Source of the DNA: a virus
IMG/VR virus record: IMGVR_UViG_3300017727_000182
Span: 1-22,220 of that record
Direction: 5' to 3' (one strand)
DNA: 22,220 nucleotides
This document shows positions 15,123 to 22,220 of this stretch, piece by piece; the first letter of the stretch is position 1; each line of letters begins with the position of its first letter. Both the position numbers and the translations under genes were made by a program. Under the pieces are notes generated by a model. The model was not told where the DNA came from, did no database searches, and saw nothing but the letters and a program-made list of their open reading frames with translations.

Positions 15123-15932
15123 ATGTCGTCATTAGGAATTATAGCTTTATCAGGCGCTAAAATGGTAGATAAATATAGAGCTAATATTAGATTAGCATAT
15201 TCTATAAGAAAACTATCCTCAGCATATACCGGAGATGTGATCAGAGTAAGAGAATCATCAGGTAATGCTGAAGCAGATATTGGATTTGATAGTAGTGGTA
15301 ACCTTGATGAAGCTGCATTGTTAACGCATTGTGGAAGTAATGATGGTTTTATTACAAAGTGGTATGATCAAAGTGGTAATGGTGGAAATTTAGAGCAAAC
15401 TACAACAGCAAATCAACCACAAATAGTATCAAGTGGTGCAGTATTAAAAGAAAACGGAAAGCCCATAATCACAGGCCTAGCTGCAAGTAATGGATCACAT
15501 TTAGATTTGATATCATCAAAAACTACATACTTACCATCAACAGGACAACATTATTTCTTCTCAGTAAGTAAGGTATCAACAGATAGAGCTATTTTATATC
15601 GAGAGGATACAAGATTTCAATTGATAGCACAAAACGGTAACACATCAACAAATACAAGAAATGATCCTAATTACTTGTCAAACACTTACAGAAAAAATTC
15701 CGCTGCATATACACCAACTAATAGAGGAGAAGTACGTACGAGTTTCAGTTCACAACATTTATTAACTATTAATGGTAGTTTAGATAACGGGGTCAGTTCT
15801 TTTGTATTAGGATATGGTGCATCTGAATTTGCTAATTATAATATGCAAGAATTTATCGTTTATGAAGGTGATTTATCAAATATACAGATCGGCTTGGAAA
15901 AAGAAGTAAATAACTATTATTCTATATTTTAA
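15123..15932 (+). CDS. ArfB/LamG-like carbohydrate-binding protein, probable adhesin
   Basis: The 269-residue product has an N-terminal segment with LAYSIRKLSSAYTGDVIRVR (24-43) and DIGFDSSGNLDEAAL (52-66), then FITKWYDQSGNGGNLEQ (76-92) and TANQPQIV (95-102). This pattern matches the concanavalin-like beta-sandwich of the ArfB (alpha-L-arabinofuranosidase B catalytic-type) family widespread in phage and bacterial surface proteins. I do not see enough to say that catalytic residues are kept, so binding rather than cleavage is the safer reading. The C-terminus (NYNMQEFIVYEGDLS) is also typical of LamG-like folds. It starts two bases after the preceding fibre-like gene and is probably part of the same tail-surface unit. 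Receptor or glycan specificity is unknown. Confidence 0.7.
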   Translation: MSSLGIIALSGAKMVDKYRANIRLAYSIRKLSSAYTGDVIRVRESSGNAEADIGFDSSGNLDEAALLTHCGSNDGFITKWYDQSGNGGNLEQTTTANQPQIVSSGAVLKENGKPIITGLAASNGSHLDLISSKTTYLPSTGQHYFFSVSKVSTDRAILYREDTRFQLIAQNGNTSTNTRNDPNYLSNTYRKNSAAYTPTNRGEVRTSFSSQHLLTINGSLDNGVSSFVLGYGASEFANYNMQEFIVYEGDLSNIQIGLEKEVNNYYSIF

Positions 15933-16271: not shown

Positions 16272-17150
16272 ATGAGTAGTTATAGTATATTCCATCTGGA
16301 AGGTGGGTTAGGTAAACATATAGCAGCTACAGCAGTAGCAAAATGTATTAAAAACAATCATCCTAAAAGAAAATTAATTATAATTTGTGCTTATCCTGAA
16401 TCATTTATTAATTTAGATTTTGTAGATAGAGTTTACAGAATAGGAAATACACCTTATTTTTATAATGATTATATTAAAGATAAAGATACTTTAATCTTTA
16501 AACATGAACCTTATTTTACAACCGAACATATAGTTCATCGTGAACCATTAATTAAAAATTGGTGTAATTTATATAATTTAGAATATAATGGAGAATCTCC
16601 ATCTTTAGTATTTAATTTAAGACAACAACAATTAGCATACGATAAATGGACTCGTGAAAAACCTATCATGGTTATGCATACTAATGGAGGCCCATTAGAA
16701 GAACAAAATCAACCTTATAGTTGGACTAGAGATATGCCCTATGATTTAGCTTGTGCCATAGCTGATCATTATAAAAAAGATTATCATATTATTCAAATCT
16801 GTAGAGAAGAATATAATTTTATTCCTGATGTAGAACATCATAAAGATCCTATGACTAATATGGAGTTATTTGGTCTATTACTATTTTCCCAGAAAAACCT
16901 TTTGATTGACTCTTCACTGCAACATGCAGCTGCAGCCTTACAGAAAAAATCCACTGTATTGTGGGTAGGAACTTCAAGTTCTATATTTGGTTATTCTTTT
17001 CATAATAATATCCAAGCTAACCTACCAGATAATTTTATATTACCAGATAGTTATTTATTTGATTATTCATTTGATGGAAGACCCCATGAATGTCCTGTAA
17101 TTGATACCCCTATGTTTGATTTATCTTCTATAGTTAATTCTTTGGGTTAA
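16272..17150 (+). CDS. GT9-like glycosyltransferase (heptosyltransferase-type fold)
   Basis: The 292-residue product resembles ADP-heptose:LPS heptosyltransferase-type (GT9) enzymes. It has a glycine-rich N-terminal loop EGGLGKHIAATAV (10-22) in the first Rossmann domain, a hydrophobic strand KLIIICA (34-40), and a second domain with HIIQICREE (172-180) and a C-terminal LIDSSLQHAAAAL (211-223) segment, which corresponds to the donor-binding helix of GT9. I cannot tell the sugar donor or acceptor. In a structural gene block it could glycosylate virion proteins or host surface glycans; neither is shown. An ATG four bases upstream (16268) opens a 3-codon frame (ATG AAT GAG TAG), so 16272 is the start. 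Near-identical 18-bp motif copies flank it. Confidence 0.7.
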   Translation: MSSYSIFHLEGGLGKHIAATAVAKCIKNNHPKRKLIIICAYPESFINLDFVDRVYRIGNTPYFYNDYIKDKDTLIFKHEPYFTTEHIVHREPLIKNWCNLYNLEYNGESPSLVFNLRQQQLAYDKWTREKPIMVMHTNGGPLEEQNQPYSWTRDMPYDLACAIADHYKKDYHIIQICREEYNFIPDVEHHKDPMTNMELFGLLLFSQKNLLIDSSLQHAAAALQKKSTVLWVGTSSSIFGYSFHNNIQANLPDNFILPDSYLFDYSFDGRPHECPVIDTPMFDLSSIVNSLG

Positions 17151-17487: not shown

Positions 17488-19230
17488 ATGGCCGAAACTC
17501 TTTTATCACCCGGTGTACTCGCTAACGAAAATGATCAGTCCCAAATTAGATCACTGCCTGTAACCGCAGGTGCCGCTATTATAGGACCTACAGTAAAAGG
17601 TAAACCCAATATTCCAAGATTAGTTACTACATTTAGTGAATATGAAGCTGAATTTGGTACTACTTTTGTTAGTGGTTCTACTGAAGAATATTCATTTTTA
17701 ACTTCAATTTCAGCAAATAACTATTTCACCCAAGGAGGTACTTCATTATTAGTAACTAGAGTAGCTACGGGTTCATTCACTCCTGCTACTAGCTCATACA
17801 TTTCATCTAGTTTATCTCAAAGTCAACAATCCTTTGTACTAGAAACCCTATCTGAAGGTGCTATTCTAAATAATGATGATGGAACTCATGGAGTAACAGG
17901 TTCTTCTTCCACAACAGGTTCTAATGGAACTTTATTAAGTGGTTCAAAAGATAATATTAGATGGGAAGTAGTATCACCTAACACATCTTCAGGAGTATTT
18001 TCTCTTTTAATTAGAAGAGGGGATGATAGAAATAATGCTAAAACCGTTTTAGAAACATTTACAAATCTTTCATTAGATCCTAGACAGTCTAATTATATTG
18101 AAAGAGTAGTAGGAAACCAAGTTCAACAATTAGTAGGATCTGGAACTGATGTTTATGTTGGAACTTCAGGATCTTACCCAAATGGTTCAAGATATGTAAG
18201 AGTAAAATCCGTTAATTTACCTACACCTGATTATTTTGATAATAATGGTGCTGCTAAGACTGAATTTACAGCATCAATTCCTCTGGCTTCTAGTGGTACA
18301 TTTGGAGCTGCAACTGGAGAAGTATTTGAAGGAGCTAATAATTTATATGAAAGTATTGGAACCCGAACTCAAGGATTAACAGATGGTAATTATACAGATG
18401 CTATTAACTTATTAGCTAATAGAGACGAGTATAGATTTAATATAATTTCTGCACCAGGTATTTACCAAGCTGATCATCCAACCCCAGTAGGAAACTTAAT
18501 TGAGATGGTAGAAAATAGAGGTGATGCCATTGCAGTAGTAGATTTAGTTAAGTATGGTTCTACTGTTTCAGTAGTTACTACGGAAGCAGGTGAAAGAGAT
18601 TCTTCTTATGGAGCTGCATATTGGCCATGGTTACAAATAAGTGAACCAAACAATGGCCAACTTGTATGGGTCCCAGCTTCAACATTGATCCCAGGGGTAT
18701 ATGCTAATACGGATGCCACAGCTGAAACTTGGTTTGCACCTGCAGGATTTAACAGAGGGGGATTAATAGGAGTAGCACAGGCTGAAAGAAAATTATCTCA
18801 ATCTCAAAGAGATACTCTTTATGTAGGAAAAGTTAACCCAATTGCTACATTCCCAGGACAAGGAGTAGTTGTATTTGGGCAGAAAACATTACAACAACAA
18901 GCTTCTGCTCTTGATAGAGTAAACGTAAGAAGATTATTGATTGCCTTGAAATCATTTATTTCACAAGTATCTGATAATCTTGTATTTGAGCAAAATTCAG
19001 CGGCAACTAGAAACGATTTCCTATCTCAAGTTAATCCTTATTTATCTTCAGTTCAACAAAGACAAGGATTATTTGCCTTTAAAGTAGTAATGGATGATAC
19101 AAATAACACTTCAGATGTTATTGACAGAAATCAATTAGTAGGTCAGATATTTATTCAACCAACTAGAACAGCTGAATTTATATTATTAGACTTTAATGTG
19201 TTGCCAACGGGAGCTACATTCCCATCTTAA
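17488..19230 (+). CDS. 18: Tail sheath protein, gp18-like
   Basis: The sheath forms the contractile outer tube; its contraction drives the inner tube into the host. The 580 residues begin with LLSPGVLANENDQSQI (5-20) and SLPVTAGAAIIGPTVKGKPN (22-41), the usual N-terminal pattern of sheath proteins, followed by an FSEYEAEFG segment. The C-terminal domain has the conserved LDRVNVRRLLIALKSFI region (about 473-489), which forms the sheath core, and the end (PTRTAEFILLDFNV) also fits the family. T4 gp18 is 659 residues, so this is a somewhat shorter version. The ATG is preceded by a TATTTATAA motif 20 bases away, and the tube gene follows after 38 bases. Confidence 0.95.
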   Translation: MAETLLSPGVLANENDQSQIRSLPVTAGAAIIGPTVKGKPNIPRLVTTFSEYEAEFGTTFVSGSTEEYSFLTSISANNYFTQGGTSLLVTRVATGSFTPATSSYISSSLSQSQQSFVLETLSEGAILNNDDGTHGVTGSSSTTGSNGTLLSGSKDNIRWEVVSPNTSSGVFSLLIRRGDDRNNAKTVLETFTNLSLDPRQSNYIERVVGNQVQQLVGSGTDVYVGTSGSYPNGSRYVRVKSVNLPTPDYFDNNGAAKTEFTASIPLASSGTFGAATGEVFEGANNLYESIGTRTQGLTDGNYTDAINLLANRDEYRFNIISAPGIYQADHPTPVGNLIEMVENRGDAIAVVDLVKYGSTVSVVTTEAGERDSSYGAAYWPWLQISEPNNGQLVWVPASTLIPGVYANTDATAETWFAPAGFNRGGLIGVAQAERKLSQSQRDTLYVGKVNPIATFPGQGVVVFGQKTLQQQASALDRVNVRRLLIALKSFISQVSDNLVFEQNSAATRNDFLSQVNPYLSSVQQRQGLFAFKVVMDDTNNTSDVIDRNQLVGQIFIQPTRTAEFILLDFNVLPTGATFPS

Positions 19231-19268: not shown

Positions 19269-19757
19269 ATGCCAGTAATAGATCCAAACGAAATATTTTT
19301 TACCCCCTTTGAACCTAAACAACCTAATAGGTTTATAATGGTGATGAATGGATTTCCTTCCTTTATGGTGAAAGGAATAGGTGCGGTTAGTTTAACCCAA
19401 GGTTCAGTCGCTTTGAATCACATCAATATCCAAAGATATGTAAAAGGCAAAACTGTATGGAATCCTATTTCTTTTACTTTATTTGATCCAATTACTCCTT
19501 CAGGCGCTCAGGCTGTAATGGAGTGGGTACGCTTACACCATGAATCCGTTACAGGTAGAGATGGGTATTCTGATTTCTATAAAAAGCAATTAACCTTCAG
19601 AGTATTAGGACCTGTAGGAGATATCGTTTCTGAATGGATTATTGAGGGTGCAATGATTACTGAAGCATCATTTGGAGATTATAATTATGATACTGTTGAT
19701 GCTGCTGTTGAAATCTCAATGACAGTACAACCAGATTATTGTGTATTGAATTTCTAA
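19269..19757 (+). CDS. 19: Tail tube protein, gp19-like
   Basis: The tube protein makes the hexameric rings of the inner tail channel. The 162-residue product is almost exactly the T4 gp19 length (163). It has the beta-sandwich pattern of the family: PKQPNRFIMVMNGFPSFMV (16-34), a TLFDPITPSGAQAVMEWV segment (70-87), and WIIEGAMITEASFGDYNYD with the final ISMTVQPDYCVLNF. The order sheath then tube is standard. Its leader contains a TATTTATAA motif 13 bases upstream, and a strong terminator follows the stop by about 25 bases. Confidence 0.95.
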   Translation: MPVIDPNEIFFTPFEPKQPNRFIMVMNGFPSFMVKGIGAVSLTQGSVALNHINIQRYVKGKTVWNPISFTLFDPITPSGAQAVMEWVRLHHESVTGRDGYSDFYKKQLTFRVLGPVGDIVSEWIIEGAMITEASFGDYNYDTVDAAVEISMTVQPDYCVLNF

Positions 19758-19816: not shown

Positions 19817-20329
19817 ATGGCAAGAGCAAAATTCATAAAACCAGCTATACAGGATCAACCTGCTAGTTTTGGGAGAACTACAGTAAATGGTGTGTTGTCT
19901 ATAACAGGCATAGAAAATGTATCCCAGTCTATAGCTGCGGCTGGTGGTGGTACTCCCACATTACAACAAGTAACAGACCAGGGTTCTTCAACAACAACCC
20001 CAATCACATCTTCTATCATAAGTGCAAGCGGTCATATTATAGGTGATATTATAGATACTAGTTTTGAAACTTTTGTAAATTTTGAAGCCGCTGCTTCATT
20101 TACATTTGTAACACCATTTGAATTAACAATTAATTTTACGGGTTCATCAACCTCTTCAATGGAAGTTGTTGGGTTATTTACAGCAAGTGCCAACACTGAA
20201 ACTTTTTCAACACAACAAACCCCTCCTATTGAATTGAACGTGTTTGATAAACTAAAAATTTCCCCTTCTTCTTCAGGGTTATTTATATTTAGTGGATCAA
20301 AAGGTGTTAGTGCATTTCCTTCTCCATAA
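19817..20329 (+). CDS. Small fibre-like virion protein, probable
   Basis: The 170-residue product is Ser/Thr/Gly-rich and looks beta-structured. It starts with a basic stretch (MARAKFIKPAI) and contains a repeat-like GTPTLQQVTDQGSSTTTPI segment (45-63), then ISASGHIIGDI, a composition and pattern common in phage tail-fibre and whisker-type proteins. The rest (INFTGSSTSSMEVVGLFTAS) continues the same style. I recognise no family. It begins only two bases after the terminator T-run, which is unusual. Confidence 0.6.
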   Translation: MARAKFIKPAIQDQPASFGRTTVNGVLSITGIENVSQSIAAAGGGTPTLQQVTDQGSSTTTPITSSIISASGHIIGDIIDTSFETFVNFEAAASFTFVTPFELTINFTGSSTSSMEVVGLFTASANTETFSTQQTPPIELNVFDKLKISPSSSGLFIFSGSKGVSAFPSP

Positions 20330-20399: not shown

Positions 20400-21149
20400 A
20401 TGTCTGAAACTAAGTTTGACTTCCCTACTGAAACAGTAGAATTACCTTCCAAAGGTCTTTTATATCCTAAAGATAATCCTCTCTCCTCTGGCGTTGTAGA
20501 AATGAAATATATGACTGCTAAAGAAGAAGATATACTCACAAATCAAAATTATATTGAAAAAGGTACAGTAATTGATAAATTACTTGAATCCTTAATTGTA
20601 AGTAAAATTAAGTTTAGTGATTTATATGTGGGAGATAAAAATGCTTTATTAGTAGCTGCTAGAATTCTTGGTTATGGAAAAAATTATAAGTTTAGGTATA
20701 ATGATGAAGAAATTACAGTTGATTTATCTTCAGTTGAAAATAGAGAAATCGATTATAGCGCACTTGAAAGCGGTGTAAATGAATTCCCTTATACCCTCCC
20801 ACATTCTGGGGTAAACATTACTTTTAAATTTTTATCCCACAAGGATGAAAGAGAAATCGAAAATGAGTTAAAAGGATTAAAAAGACTAAAAAAAGATTCT
20901 TCAGCAGATATGTCAACTAGACTTAAACATATAATAGTCTCAGTTGATGGTGAAAGTGAAAGATCTCATGTTAGAAAATTTGTGGATAATCATCTCTTAG
21001 CTATGGATTCTAGAGAATTAAGAAAACATATTAGAGAAGTTCAACCTGATGTTAATCTTTCTACTACTATTGAAGTTGGGAGGGATAAGTATAAAGAAAT
21101 TGATATTCCAATTACACTGAATTTTTTTTGGCCAGACGCAGACTTATAG
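20400..21149 (+). CDS. 26: gp26-like baseplate hub / tail assembly protein
   Basis: This 249-residue product has the pattern of the T4 baseplate protein family (T4_baseplate, gp26). It shows VELPSKGLLYP (13-23), a KYMTAKEEDILTN segment (36-48), GDKNALLVAARILGYG (78-93), and a C-terminus ending NFFWPDADL. T4 gp26 is 208 residues. In T4, genes 26 and 51 act in hub assembly before the tape measure gp29. Position before a tape-measure-like gene, and the small chaperone reading frame overlapping its end, suggest that it is the first half of a tail assembly chaperone pair. The start is the ATG at 20400, preceded by a TATTTATCA motif 34 bases away. Confidence 0.8.
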   Translation: MSETKFDFPTETVELPSKGLLYPKDNPLSSGVVEMKYMTAKEEDILTNQNYIEKGTVIDKLLESLIVSKIKFSDLYVGDKNALLVAARILGYGKNYKFRYNDEEITVDLSSVENREIDYSALESGVNEFPYTLPHSGVNITFKFLSHKDEREIENELKGLKRLKKDSSADMSTRLKHIIVSVDGESERSHVRKFVDNHLLAMDSRELRKHIREVQPDVNLSTTIEVGRDKYKEIDIPITLNFFWPDADL

Positions 21150-21150
21150 A
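21121..21150 (+). other. Candidate +1 recoding site linking gp26-like gene to its extension
   Basis: The gp26-like frame ends FFWPDADL with TAG at 21147-21149. The +1 frame is open from 21121 to 21444 and contains conserved-looking sequence RNDLFSQIHSIVFHGKGGYD, beginning at 21148. Between the in-frame TGA at 21118 and the ATG at 21226 there is no ATG, GTG or TTG in that frame. A +1 shift at or just before TTA-TAG would give FFWPDADL-RNDLF or FFWPDAD-YRNDLF. A T8 run at 21122-21129 could allow a -2 slip into the same frame, but that would lose the WPDAD residues. Confidence 0.55.
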
Positions 21151-21225
21151 AACGATCTCTTTAGTCAAATCCATTCGATCGTATTTCATGGAAAAGGTGG
21201 GTATGATTTTCACACCGTTTATAAC

Positions 21226-21444
21226 ATGCCAATTTGGTTAAGAAACTATATAGCTTCTTCAATCTCAGAACATTATAAAAAAGAGGCTGAAGAAGTTAAA
21301 AAAGCTAGATCCGATAGTAATACTAAAAAATTCAATATGGGGGATACTAATAAAAGGAACATTCCAGATTTTTTAAAAAACCCTCCAAAATCCTCACCTA
21401 AACCAAGTTATTCAACTAAGTTCTCAAAAAACACAAAGAAGTAA
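21226..21444 (+). CDS. Tail assembly chaperone extension (frameshifted gp26 C-terminal part or gp51-like)
   Basis: The ATG at 21226 gives 72 residues, but this start is probably wrong or secondary. The open frame extends upstream to about 21121 and the residues before the ATG (LFSQIHSIVFHGKGGYDFHTVYN) are continuous with MPIWLRNY, making the pattern I/V-x-F-H-G-K-G-G-Y ... V-Y-N-M-P-I-W-L-R, which I recognise from small proteins that follow gp26 in T4-like phages and from tail assembly chaperones. After MPIWLRNYIASSISEHYKKE the rest is a Lys/Ser/Pro-rich tail. I infer that it is made as a fusion with the gp26-like protein, as is common for tail assembly chaperones upstream of a tape measure. 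A free 72-residue form from the ATG is also possible. Confidence 0.65.
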   Translation: MPIWLRNYIASSISEHYKKEAEEVKKARSDSNTKKFNMGDTNKRNIPDFLKNPPKSSPKPSYSTKFSKNTKK

Positions 21445-21465: not shown

Positions 21466-22220
21466 GTGGCCGATTTTGGGGAATATAGAGATGTTCTTAA
21501 GGAGATAAATGCTGAATTTGGTAAGAATATTAGTAATGTAAAGGAAGCTACTAAAGCTATTAACACCCTAGGTTCAGTTTCTAAAACTCTTCAGAATCAG
21601 GAAGAAGCCATTACTAGATTAACTGATAAACAGTTAGATGCTCAAAGACAAAAAGCTGAAGTAGCAGTTAGGGAACTTCGAGCTAATGCTGATAAACTTG
21701 CTCAAGATAAATCATTATCCACTTTATCGGGTCAGATGCTTGCAAGGTCTATTGATAGACAACTTGCGGCAGGAAAATTAACCGAAGAAGAAGCTAACTT
21801 ACTAAGAGCTAGAGAACAAGGATTTGCTATAGAACAGGAAATCTTAGATCTGATTGATAAAGAAGTTGAAAAACGAAAAGCTTCTAATAGTATATTGGGG
21901 GTAACAGGAAATCTTTTAAAGGGAGCCAAGGAAATACTGGGGGGTAGTATAGCCTCCGCCCTAAAACTAGACGATGCCTTCGCCGCAGCACAGAAAAAAG
22001 CAGATAGTCTTGCTGAATCTGTAAGCAAGGGTGAGATATCAAAGGGTTTTGCTAAATTACAAGTGGCAGCTACAGGTATAGGACAAACTTTAAAAGGTTT
22101 AGCTACTACCCTAACTGATCCATTTGTTATTATATCTGCAATCATCAAATCCTTTACTGAATTTACTAAAGCTAATGCAGATTTAAGAAATCTTACAGGC
22201 CAAACTGCCAGTAACTTTGA
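21466..22220 (+). CDS. Tail tape measure-like protein, N-terminal part (runs off window end)
   Basis: The frame is open from GTG 21466 to the window end (251 full codons). TAA codons lie in the same frame at 21451 and 21454, so GTG is the only start candidate nearby (VADFGEYRDV). The protein is highly helical with coiled-coil-like Ala/Glu/Lys/Leu-rich segments (for example KLAQDKSLSTLSGQML at 77-92), then a hydrophobic segment LATTLTDPFVIISAIIKSF (212-230) that could be a membrane-active stretch, followed by FTKANADLRNLTG. Such layouts are typical of tape measure proteins, which set tail length and often act at the host membrane. Its place directly after the gp26-like chaperone genes matches T4 gp29 and tape measures in general. 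The full length is unknown. Confidence 0.7.
   Translation, partial: MADFGEYRDVLKEINAEFGKNISNVKEATKAINTLGSVSKTLQNQEEAITRLTDKQLDAQRQKAEVAVRELRANADKLAQDKSLSTLSGQMLARSIDRQLAAGKLTEEEANLLRAREQGFAIEQEILDLIDKEVEKRKASNSILGVTGNLLKGAKEILGGSIASALKLDDAFAAAQKKADSLAESVSKGEISKGFAKLQVAATGIGQTLKGLATTLTDPFVIISAIIKSFTEFTKANADLRNLTGQTASNF

Follow-up and report, generated by a model that had tools for sequence, protein, structure and literature searches.

The locus considered here poses the question of how a conserved reading frame without a start of its own could be translated from behind a putative tail-assembly chaperone gene. It lies in a 22-kb virus record of IMG/VR (IMGVR_UViG_3300017727_000182, positions 1-22,220), and this whole stretch of 22,220 nucleotides is called the window throughout. 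The upstream gene, A, reads ...N F F W P D A D L before a TAG, and the extension that follows in the +1 frame is called T. The relevant features are as follows.

17488..19230, + strand: tail sheath protein (PF04984, E 2.1e-12; phrog_23, E 9.1e-75)
19269..19757, + strand: tail tube protein (phrog_4542, E 1.3e-23)
20400..21149, + strand: gene A, gp26-like, G-like tail-assembly chaperone, 249 aa unshifted (phrog_150, fold matches)
21118..21120, + strand: TGA closing the +1 frame upstream (read from the sequence)
21123..21134, + strand: shift site TTT TTT TGG CCA, within the T8 run 21122-21129 (invariant YTT_T in relatives)
21130..21444, + strand: T extension, +1 frame, 104 aa past the shift (conservation, dN/dS)
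21147..21149, + strand: frame-0 stop TAG, overlapping the conserved TAT AGA (Tyr-Arg) of the T frame
21466..22218, + strand: probable tape measure protein gene, GTG start, running off the window (position, coiled-coil-like sequence)

The +1 frame is open from the TGA at 21118 to a TAA at 21442-21444, and the residues RNDLFSQIHS... begin in it at 21148. No ATG, GTG or TTG is present in this frame of the window upstream of the ATG at 21226 (MPIWLRNY), and since the frame is closed by the TGA at 21118-21120, T is left without its own start. These points and the frame-0 stop at 21149 had been put forward by a sequence-only reading, the coordinates of which proved right on direct reading. A shift within the T8 run would yield a fusion of 243 + 104 = 347 aa. 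The -1 frame of the window, also read from the sequence, is open for only about 36 codons and is without T, and the classical -1 arrangement, in which a -1 extension stands behind a tandem slip heptamer X_XXY_YYZ, is absent here.

The observed gene order is tube (19269-19757), one small ORF (19817-20329), A/T and the probable tape measure. The pair satisfies the position expected of lambda G/GT-type genes, between tail tube and tape measure genes, and the order tube, A/T, tape measure is also seen in Flavobacterium phage immuto and in SP-15, in both of which the gene at the tape measure place is annotated as tail tape measure protein. The earlier placement of the pair directly ahead of a tape measure gene is matched by this order. 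The probable tape measure ORF begins with GTG at 21466 with no evident Shine-Dalgarno and translation of T ends at 21444; coupling of this start to T translation is possible. Elsewhere in the window, a 292-aa ORF among the structural genes (16272-17150) has a glycosyltransferase-like look (weak phrog_8954, E 0.0012), and an ORF at 15123-15932 with a phrog_10356 'virion structural protein' domain (E 2e-18) is perhaps a lectin-like decoration or fibre part.

Conservation of the split and selection on T

Using tblastn, A and a +1 T were found adjacent and in the same frame relation in nearly all of 160 IMG/VR loci, and the same split is observed in about 150 related loci. With isolates included, the frame relation is +1 in 153 of 162 loci and -1 in 8, with one broken contig. 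Statistics of the site and of T are based on 103 non-redundant +1 loci. In these, the frame-0 stop (TAG in 46/103) lies 5-13 codons past the first slip-site codon, T is 72-106 aa long, and stop density in T's frame upstream averages 10.5%. Across relatives, the stop that closes T's frame upstream and the stop of frame 0 confine the overlap to the same few bases. The locus therefore has what defines a lambda G/GT-type arrangement, namely a conserved overlapping downstream frame without its own start and a slip site before the upstream stop. Recurrence of the split in some 150 relatives excludes chance and assembly error, and on this comparative evidence the split is conserved biology.

The whole T alignment is saturated (median dN/dS 0.53), so the ungapped core of T ahead of the first Met was used instead. 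Its median dN/dS is 0.275 (0.28) in the +1 frame, compared with 1.28 and 1.76 in the other two frames of the same DNA, and differences are concentrated at the third codon position, a translation-like pattern. Before the Met, Arg9, Phe13, Ile16-His17, Ile19, Gly23, Gly25-Gly26 and Tyr33 are either invariant or conserved in 90% or more of the sequences (Arg, Phe, Ile-His-x-Ile, Gly-x-Gly-Gly, Tyr). These substitution patterns indicate purifying selection on the +1 frame of T ahead of its first ATG. Homologues beginning at MPIWLRNY without upstream conservation, which had been named as the finding that would refute recoding, are not what the alignment contains. Recoding in the +1 direction, as originally suggested, is instead supported by the split in about 150 relatives, by selection on T and by the invariant site described below.

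The slip site and the ways of joining the frames

The two frames overlap at one invariant site, YTT_T, in 103/103 non-redundant loci; in every one the overlap consists of TTT or TTC, then TTT or CTT, then T. Four slip nonamers account for all loci: TTTTTTTGG (TTT TTT TGG) in 81, TTTCTTTGG (TTT CTT TGG) in 13, TTTTTTTTC (TTT TTT TTC) in 8 and TTCTTTTGG (TTC TTT TGG) in 1. None of the four is found at any of the 24360 other in-frame positions of A. The site of the window is AAT TTT TTT TGG (21120-21131), 6 codons ahead of the stop, with a run of T8 where most relatives have T7. Sites are less clear in far relatives, e.g. CTA TTC CCT in LR756508 and TTT TTT AGT in LIS04. A variant of the slip site that is silent in frame 0 is TTCTTCTGG. 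The sequence-only reading had located recoding near the stop, at 21138-21150; the recoding is upheld, and conservation moves the slip upstream to the T8 run at 21122-21129. A shift at the stop codon itself (TTA_TAG) was rejected, as the position of the stop varies among relatives and YTT_TGGCC is constant.

Constraint extends beyond the T run. Codon choice was compared with each gene's own usage by a G test, and mean G/df reaches 30 for codons 231-240 and 66 for codons 241-250, against a gene median of 2.3. Asp246 is GAC in 95/97, although the window prefers GAT; Pro245 is CCT in 95/103, Asn241 AAC in 49/59 and Glu232 GAG in 54/63. The downstream motif CCTGAC is conserved as strongly as the T run. 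Around the site no conserved RNA structure was found by RNAalifold, with mean folding z-scores of 0 to -1.1. Upstream, GGAGG stands at the fixed distance -31/-28 in 59/103 loci (10.7 expected), in the column of Glu232 of A, and arises from GAG codons that these genes otherwise avoid, which points to strong selection for it; it is absent from the window and its clade. Shine-Dalgarno stimulation by this GGAGG was considered and set aside, because at about 29 nt upstream it is too far for a P-site effect and the clade of the window lacks it.

The site was also sought without protein information, by scanning IMG/VR with the 19-nt DNA pattern YTTTYTTTGGCCTGACGNC. At least 79 new loci with at least 79 sites were recovered. 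Among the matches listed, 79/79 sites stand at the end of an A-like frame followed by an open, T-like +1 frame, and identity of A to that of the window falls as low as 34% with the motif unchanged. In 78 of the 79 loci listed, phmmer identifies the upstream frame as an A homologue, the 79th being interrupted by a contig end and having a clear T; the +1 T frame is interrupted by contig ends in 3.

Slippage of the P-site tRNA by +1 at YTT_T fits every variant found in the 103 loci. The short T runs of TTT CTT TGG and TTC TTT TGG favour this route, and tandem -1 slippage is disfavoured by the base preceding the slip pair, which is T in just 11/103. The A-site codon is TGG in 95/103 and TTC in 8/103; at 7.9 per 1000 in the window TGG is not especially rare, which counts against the proposed +1 slip. 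Programmed +1 frameshifting that yields a lambda G/GT-like pair of tape-measure chaperones is accordingly held to be highly probable. Most ribosomes would read A to its stop and make the 249-aa G-like chaperone. In the remainder the P-site tRNA would slip from TTT at 21126-21128 to TTT at 21127-21129, and GGC at 21130 would be the next codon. As with lambda gpG/gpGT, the model for these roles being taken from PMC5009743, A may coat the product of the neighbouring tape measure gene, and tube subunits or the tube initiator may be recruited by T when it is present in the rare fusion. Frameshifting in A/T appears to occur on the strength of sequence and models; there are no peptide, ribosome-profiling, reporter or efficiency data. 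That the shift is ribosomal and not transcriptional, that it is +1 and not -2, its efficiency and the binding partners are inferences only. G/GT-like binding (both products to the tape measure, T to the tube), absence from the virion and a fixed ratio are traits of the lambda class that A/T would share by analogy alone, without protein data.

Other ways of accounting for the divided frames can be weighed against these observations. A sequencing or assembly indel in the T8 run could divide a single gene, the alternative to which the sequence-only reading had given most room; homopolymers are error-prone and one relative (L142) does look broken in A. However, the same split occurs in about 150 independent contigs and in the isolates immuto, Mel-JY01, RM378 and SP-15, T3CT3 sites have no long homopolymer, and T replaces frame 0 only past a stop that is kept within 5-13 codons, so that an error of this kind is ruled out for practical purposes. 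That T is a separate small protein begun at the internal ATG at 21226, in line with the annotation of cyanophage gp51 and immuto ORF 233, draws on a Met conserved in 96% of sequences and on the choice of such starts by annotators. It is made very improbable by the 30 preceding codons, conserved and under purifying selection in the T frame, by the Phe that immuto has at the Met position, and by T4 gp51, in which a G-like domain and what is probably the T segment form a single chain.

Two further rivals are transcriptional slippage on the T run and -2 ribosomal frameshifting. The former would produce mixed mRNAs, some of which join the frames, and the T8 of the window and T7 of most relatives would allow it, a loss of one base or a gain of two being sufficient. 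It is nevertheless improbable: the 13 relatives with TTTCTTTGG and the one with TTCTTTTGG have runs of 3-4 T, too short for such slippage, and CCTGAC downstream is as strongly conserved as the run itself. A -2 shift as in phage Mu would lead into the same reading frame and add one residue. Such shifts have precedent in tail genes (PMC5009743), and TTT TTT T would permit re-pairing two bases back. At TTT CTT TGG, however, the CTT tRNA would be placed on TTC with a first-position mismatch, whereas a +1 slip gives TTT in the manner of RF2. The frame entered is the same; -2 slippage is only argued against, and it is considered quite improbable.

Family, fold and the T4 group

A matches phrog_150 'baseplate hub' (E 2.7e-14), which gives it a sequence match to the models of the T4 gp26/gp51 family. 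Pfam PF12322 does not match the protein of the window or its record, though it matches the T4, cyanophage and Atu_ph07 relatives. The structures of A and T were modelled separately. The AlphaFold model of A (pLDDT 90.5) has three best PDB matches, each covering residues 1-97: YqbN (3klu) at Z 5.7, the tail-assembly chaperone of HK97 (2ob9) at Z 4.7 and a protein of a PICI-like element (5ir0) at Z 3.8. The remaining list scores Z 2.3 or less. These Z-scores are modest (3.8-5.7), and the three chains are tail-assembly chaperones or look-alikes. A search of the PDB by sequence with the A profile gave no match. T alone models weakly (pLDDT 69), and its model has no significant match in BFVD. The modest fold similarity of A and its place ahead of the tape measure gene make a G/GT-type chaperone pair the simplest reading, and lend support to the initial comparison with lambda G/GT.

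The direction of the shift is not fixed in the wider group. In a sub-clade of five relatives (L140, L145, L148, L152, L156) the site is AAT TTT TTC TGG, containing the classical heptamer T TTT TTC, and the -1 frame gives YRVKIFHTIHEIVFHGGGGYDFHTVYNMPIWLR, nearly the same T. This sub-clade has switched from the +1 site to a -1 heptamer with T retained, and the near identity of T implies that the fusion itself is kept, whatever the route. Extensions in +1 are found in Flavobacterium phage immuto, Microcystis phage Mel-JY01, Rhodothermus RM378, Bacillus SP-15, Listeria LIS04, Streptococcus GXN1 (TTC TTT CGT) and LR756508. Extensions in -1 are found in Methylophilales Melnitz, cyanophages Syn1 and S-RIM8, Sinorhizobium phiN3, Stenotrophomonas Yut2, Aeromonas Aeh1, Vibrio PG216, the Ackermannviridae, XacN1, RAS14, Atu_ph07, PA5oct and LR756511; cyanophages, Aeh1, schizoT4, Ackermannviridae and several jumbo phages are thus represented. 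A scan of IMG/VR with XacN1 A gave no match. In Syn1-related IMG/VR loci T TTT TTC stands three codons before the stop in 80/80; the -1 T that follows measures 58-66 aa in 79 of them and is incomplete in the other. For cyanophages S-RIM8/Syn1 the junction is:

Predicted -1 junction sequence: ...SFFRIALLHSNLR

In Ackermannviridae and a Vibrio phage (L180, L181, L182, L184) the shift falls at ATT TTC or CTT TTC. This is an unusual site for -1, one at which good re-pairing would be open to a single tRNA only. Small annotated ORFs ('gp51' or hypothetical; L175:2268-2399, L176:1962-2099, L161:3851-3961) are the 3' part of T called from an internal ATG, and such gene calls need correction in many genomes.

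PF12322 spans T4 gp26 and residues 1-201 of gp51, and what remains of gp51 can be aligned to the T domain of cyanophages (hhalign 97%, E 2e-11, against values close to 0 for column-shuffled controls). Two PF12322 genes, 26 and 51, are present in T4, with no slip site in either, and Syn1, S-RIM8, phiN3, Aeh1 and PG216 have one each. The T of the window scores 24% with cyanophage T and under 1% with gp51 directly. Because its connection to gp51 runs through intermediates alone (first Thornevirus-type T, then cyanophage T), its homology to the gp51 C-terminus, inferred from profile comparisons, is probable and not proven. Sullivan et al. 2010 (PMC3037559) described cyanophage gp51 as without about 200 N-terminal residues (~20% of usual length) and Aeh1 as without gp51, facts that had since stood unexplained. 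Supply of the N-terminal part by gp26 through frameshifting would explain both. A likely reading is that the short 'gp51' of marine cyanophages and the one 'missing' from Aeh1 represent the frameshifted T domain, and that the whole T4 supergroup was ancestrally G/GT-frameshifted. In most branches the single PF12322 gene would gain its extension by a -1 shift; a large branch made up of uncultured phages and Flavobacterium phages would use +1 instead, at a 19-nt cassette that hardly varies. The gp26/gp51 pair of T4 would derive from a duplication, with T kept in one copy, that replaced the frameshift. The hub-assembly factors gp26 and gp51, of unclear action, would thereby gain a testable role as tape measure chaperones, and YTTTYTTTGGCCTGACGNC offers a strongly conserved +1 cassette for studying the forward shift of bacterial ribosomes at a sense codon. 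No report of gp26/gp51 frameshifting or of the YTTTYTTTGGCCTGACGNC cassette was found in the open literature, subscription journals being outside its scope.

Comparison with known recoding systems

Like A/T, lambda gpG/gpGT and HK97 gp13/14 are encoded directly before the tape measure gene and comprise a short product and a frameshifted fusion, and the N-terminal part of A resembles the HK97 chaperone at a modest Z-score. They differ in shifting -1 at a slippery heptamer, whereas A/T would shift +1 at the sense-codon site YUU_UGG, and A has an extra C-terminal part of about 150 residues.

The +1 shift of RF2 (prfB) is closer in mechanism, a P-site tRNA slip at YUU_U, exactly CUU_U in some members; the RF2-type YUU_U slip codon is present in 103/103 loci. 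In A/T, by contrast, the A site is UGG and not a stop codon, and there is no Shine-Dalgarno 3 nt upstream, GGAGG standing at -31/-28 and not at -8. In influenza PA-X (UCC_UUU_CGU), too, a tRNA slips +1 on UUU while a sense codon occupies the A site (PMC3498833), and the TTC TTT CGT of Streptococcus phage GXN1 resembles it, although PA-X belongs to a eukaryotic virus and an unrelated gene. In tail morphogenesis genes, +1 frameshifting is recorded for Listeria phages PSA, A118 and A500 and for haloarchaeal HSTV-2 (PMC5009743). In the Listeria phages the shift occurs at CCC_UGA in the major tail protein and not in a chaperone, with +1 shifts also in capsid protein genes; HSTV-2 is a chaperone case, single and inferred.

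The 2016 recoding review (PMC5009743) describes G-T frameshifting as widely conserved in long-tailed phages 'except T4', and A/T falls within the T4 group, the exception so named. A is gp26-like through phrog_150, and the C-terminal segment of gp51, like gp26 a PF12322 hub assembly chaperone, is homologous to cyanophage T. T4 has two separate genes and no slip site, in contrast to its frameshifting relatives with one PF12322 gene; the relatives of T4 would thus frameshift, and T4 itself would have divided the job between two genes.
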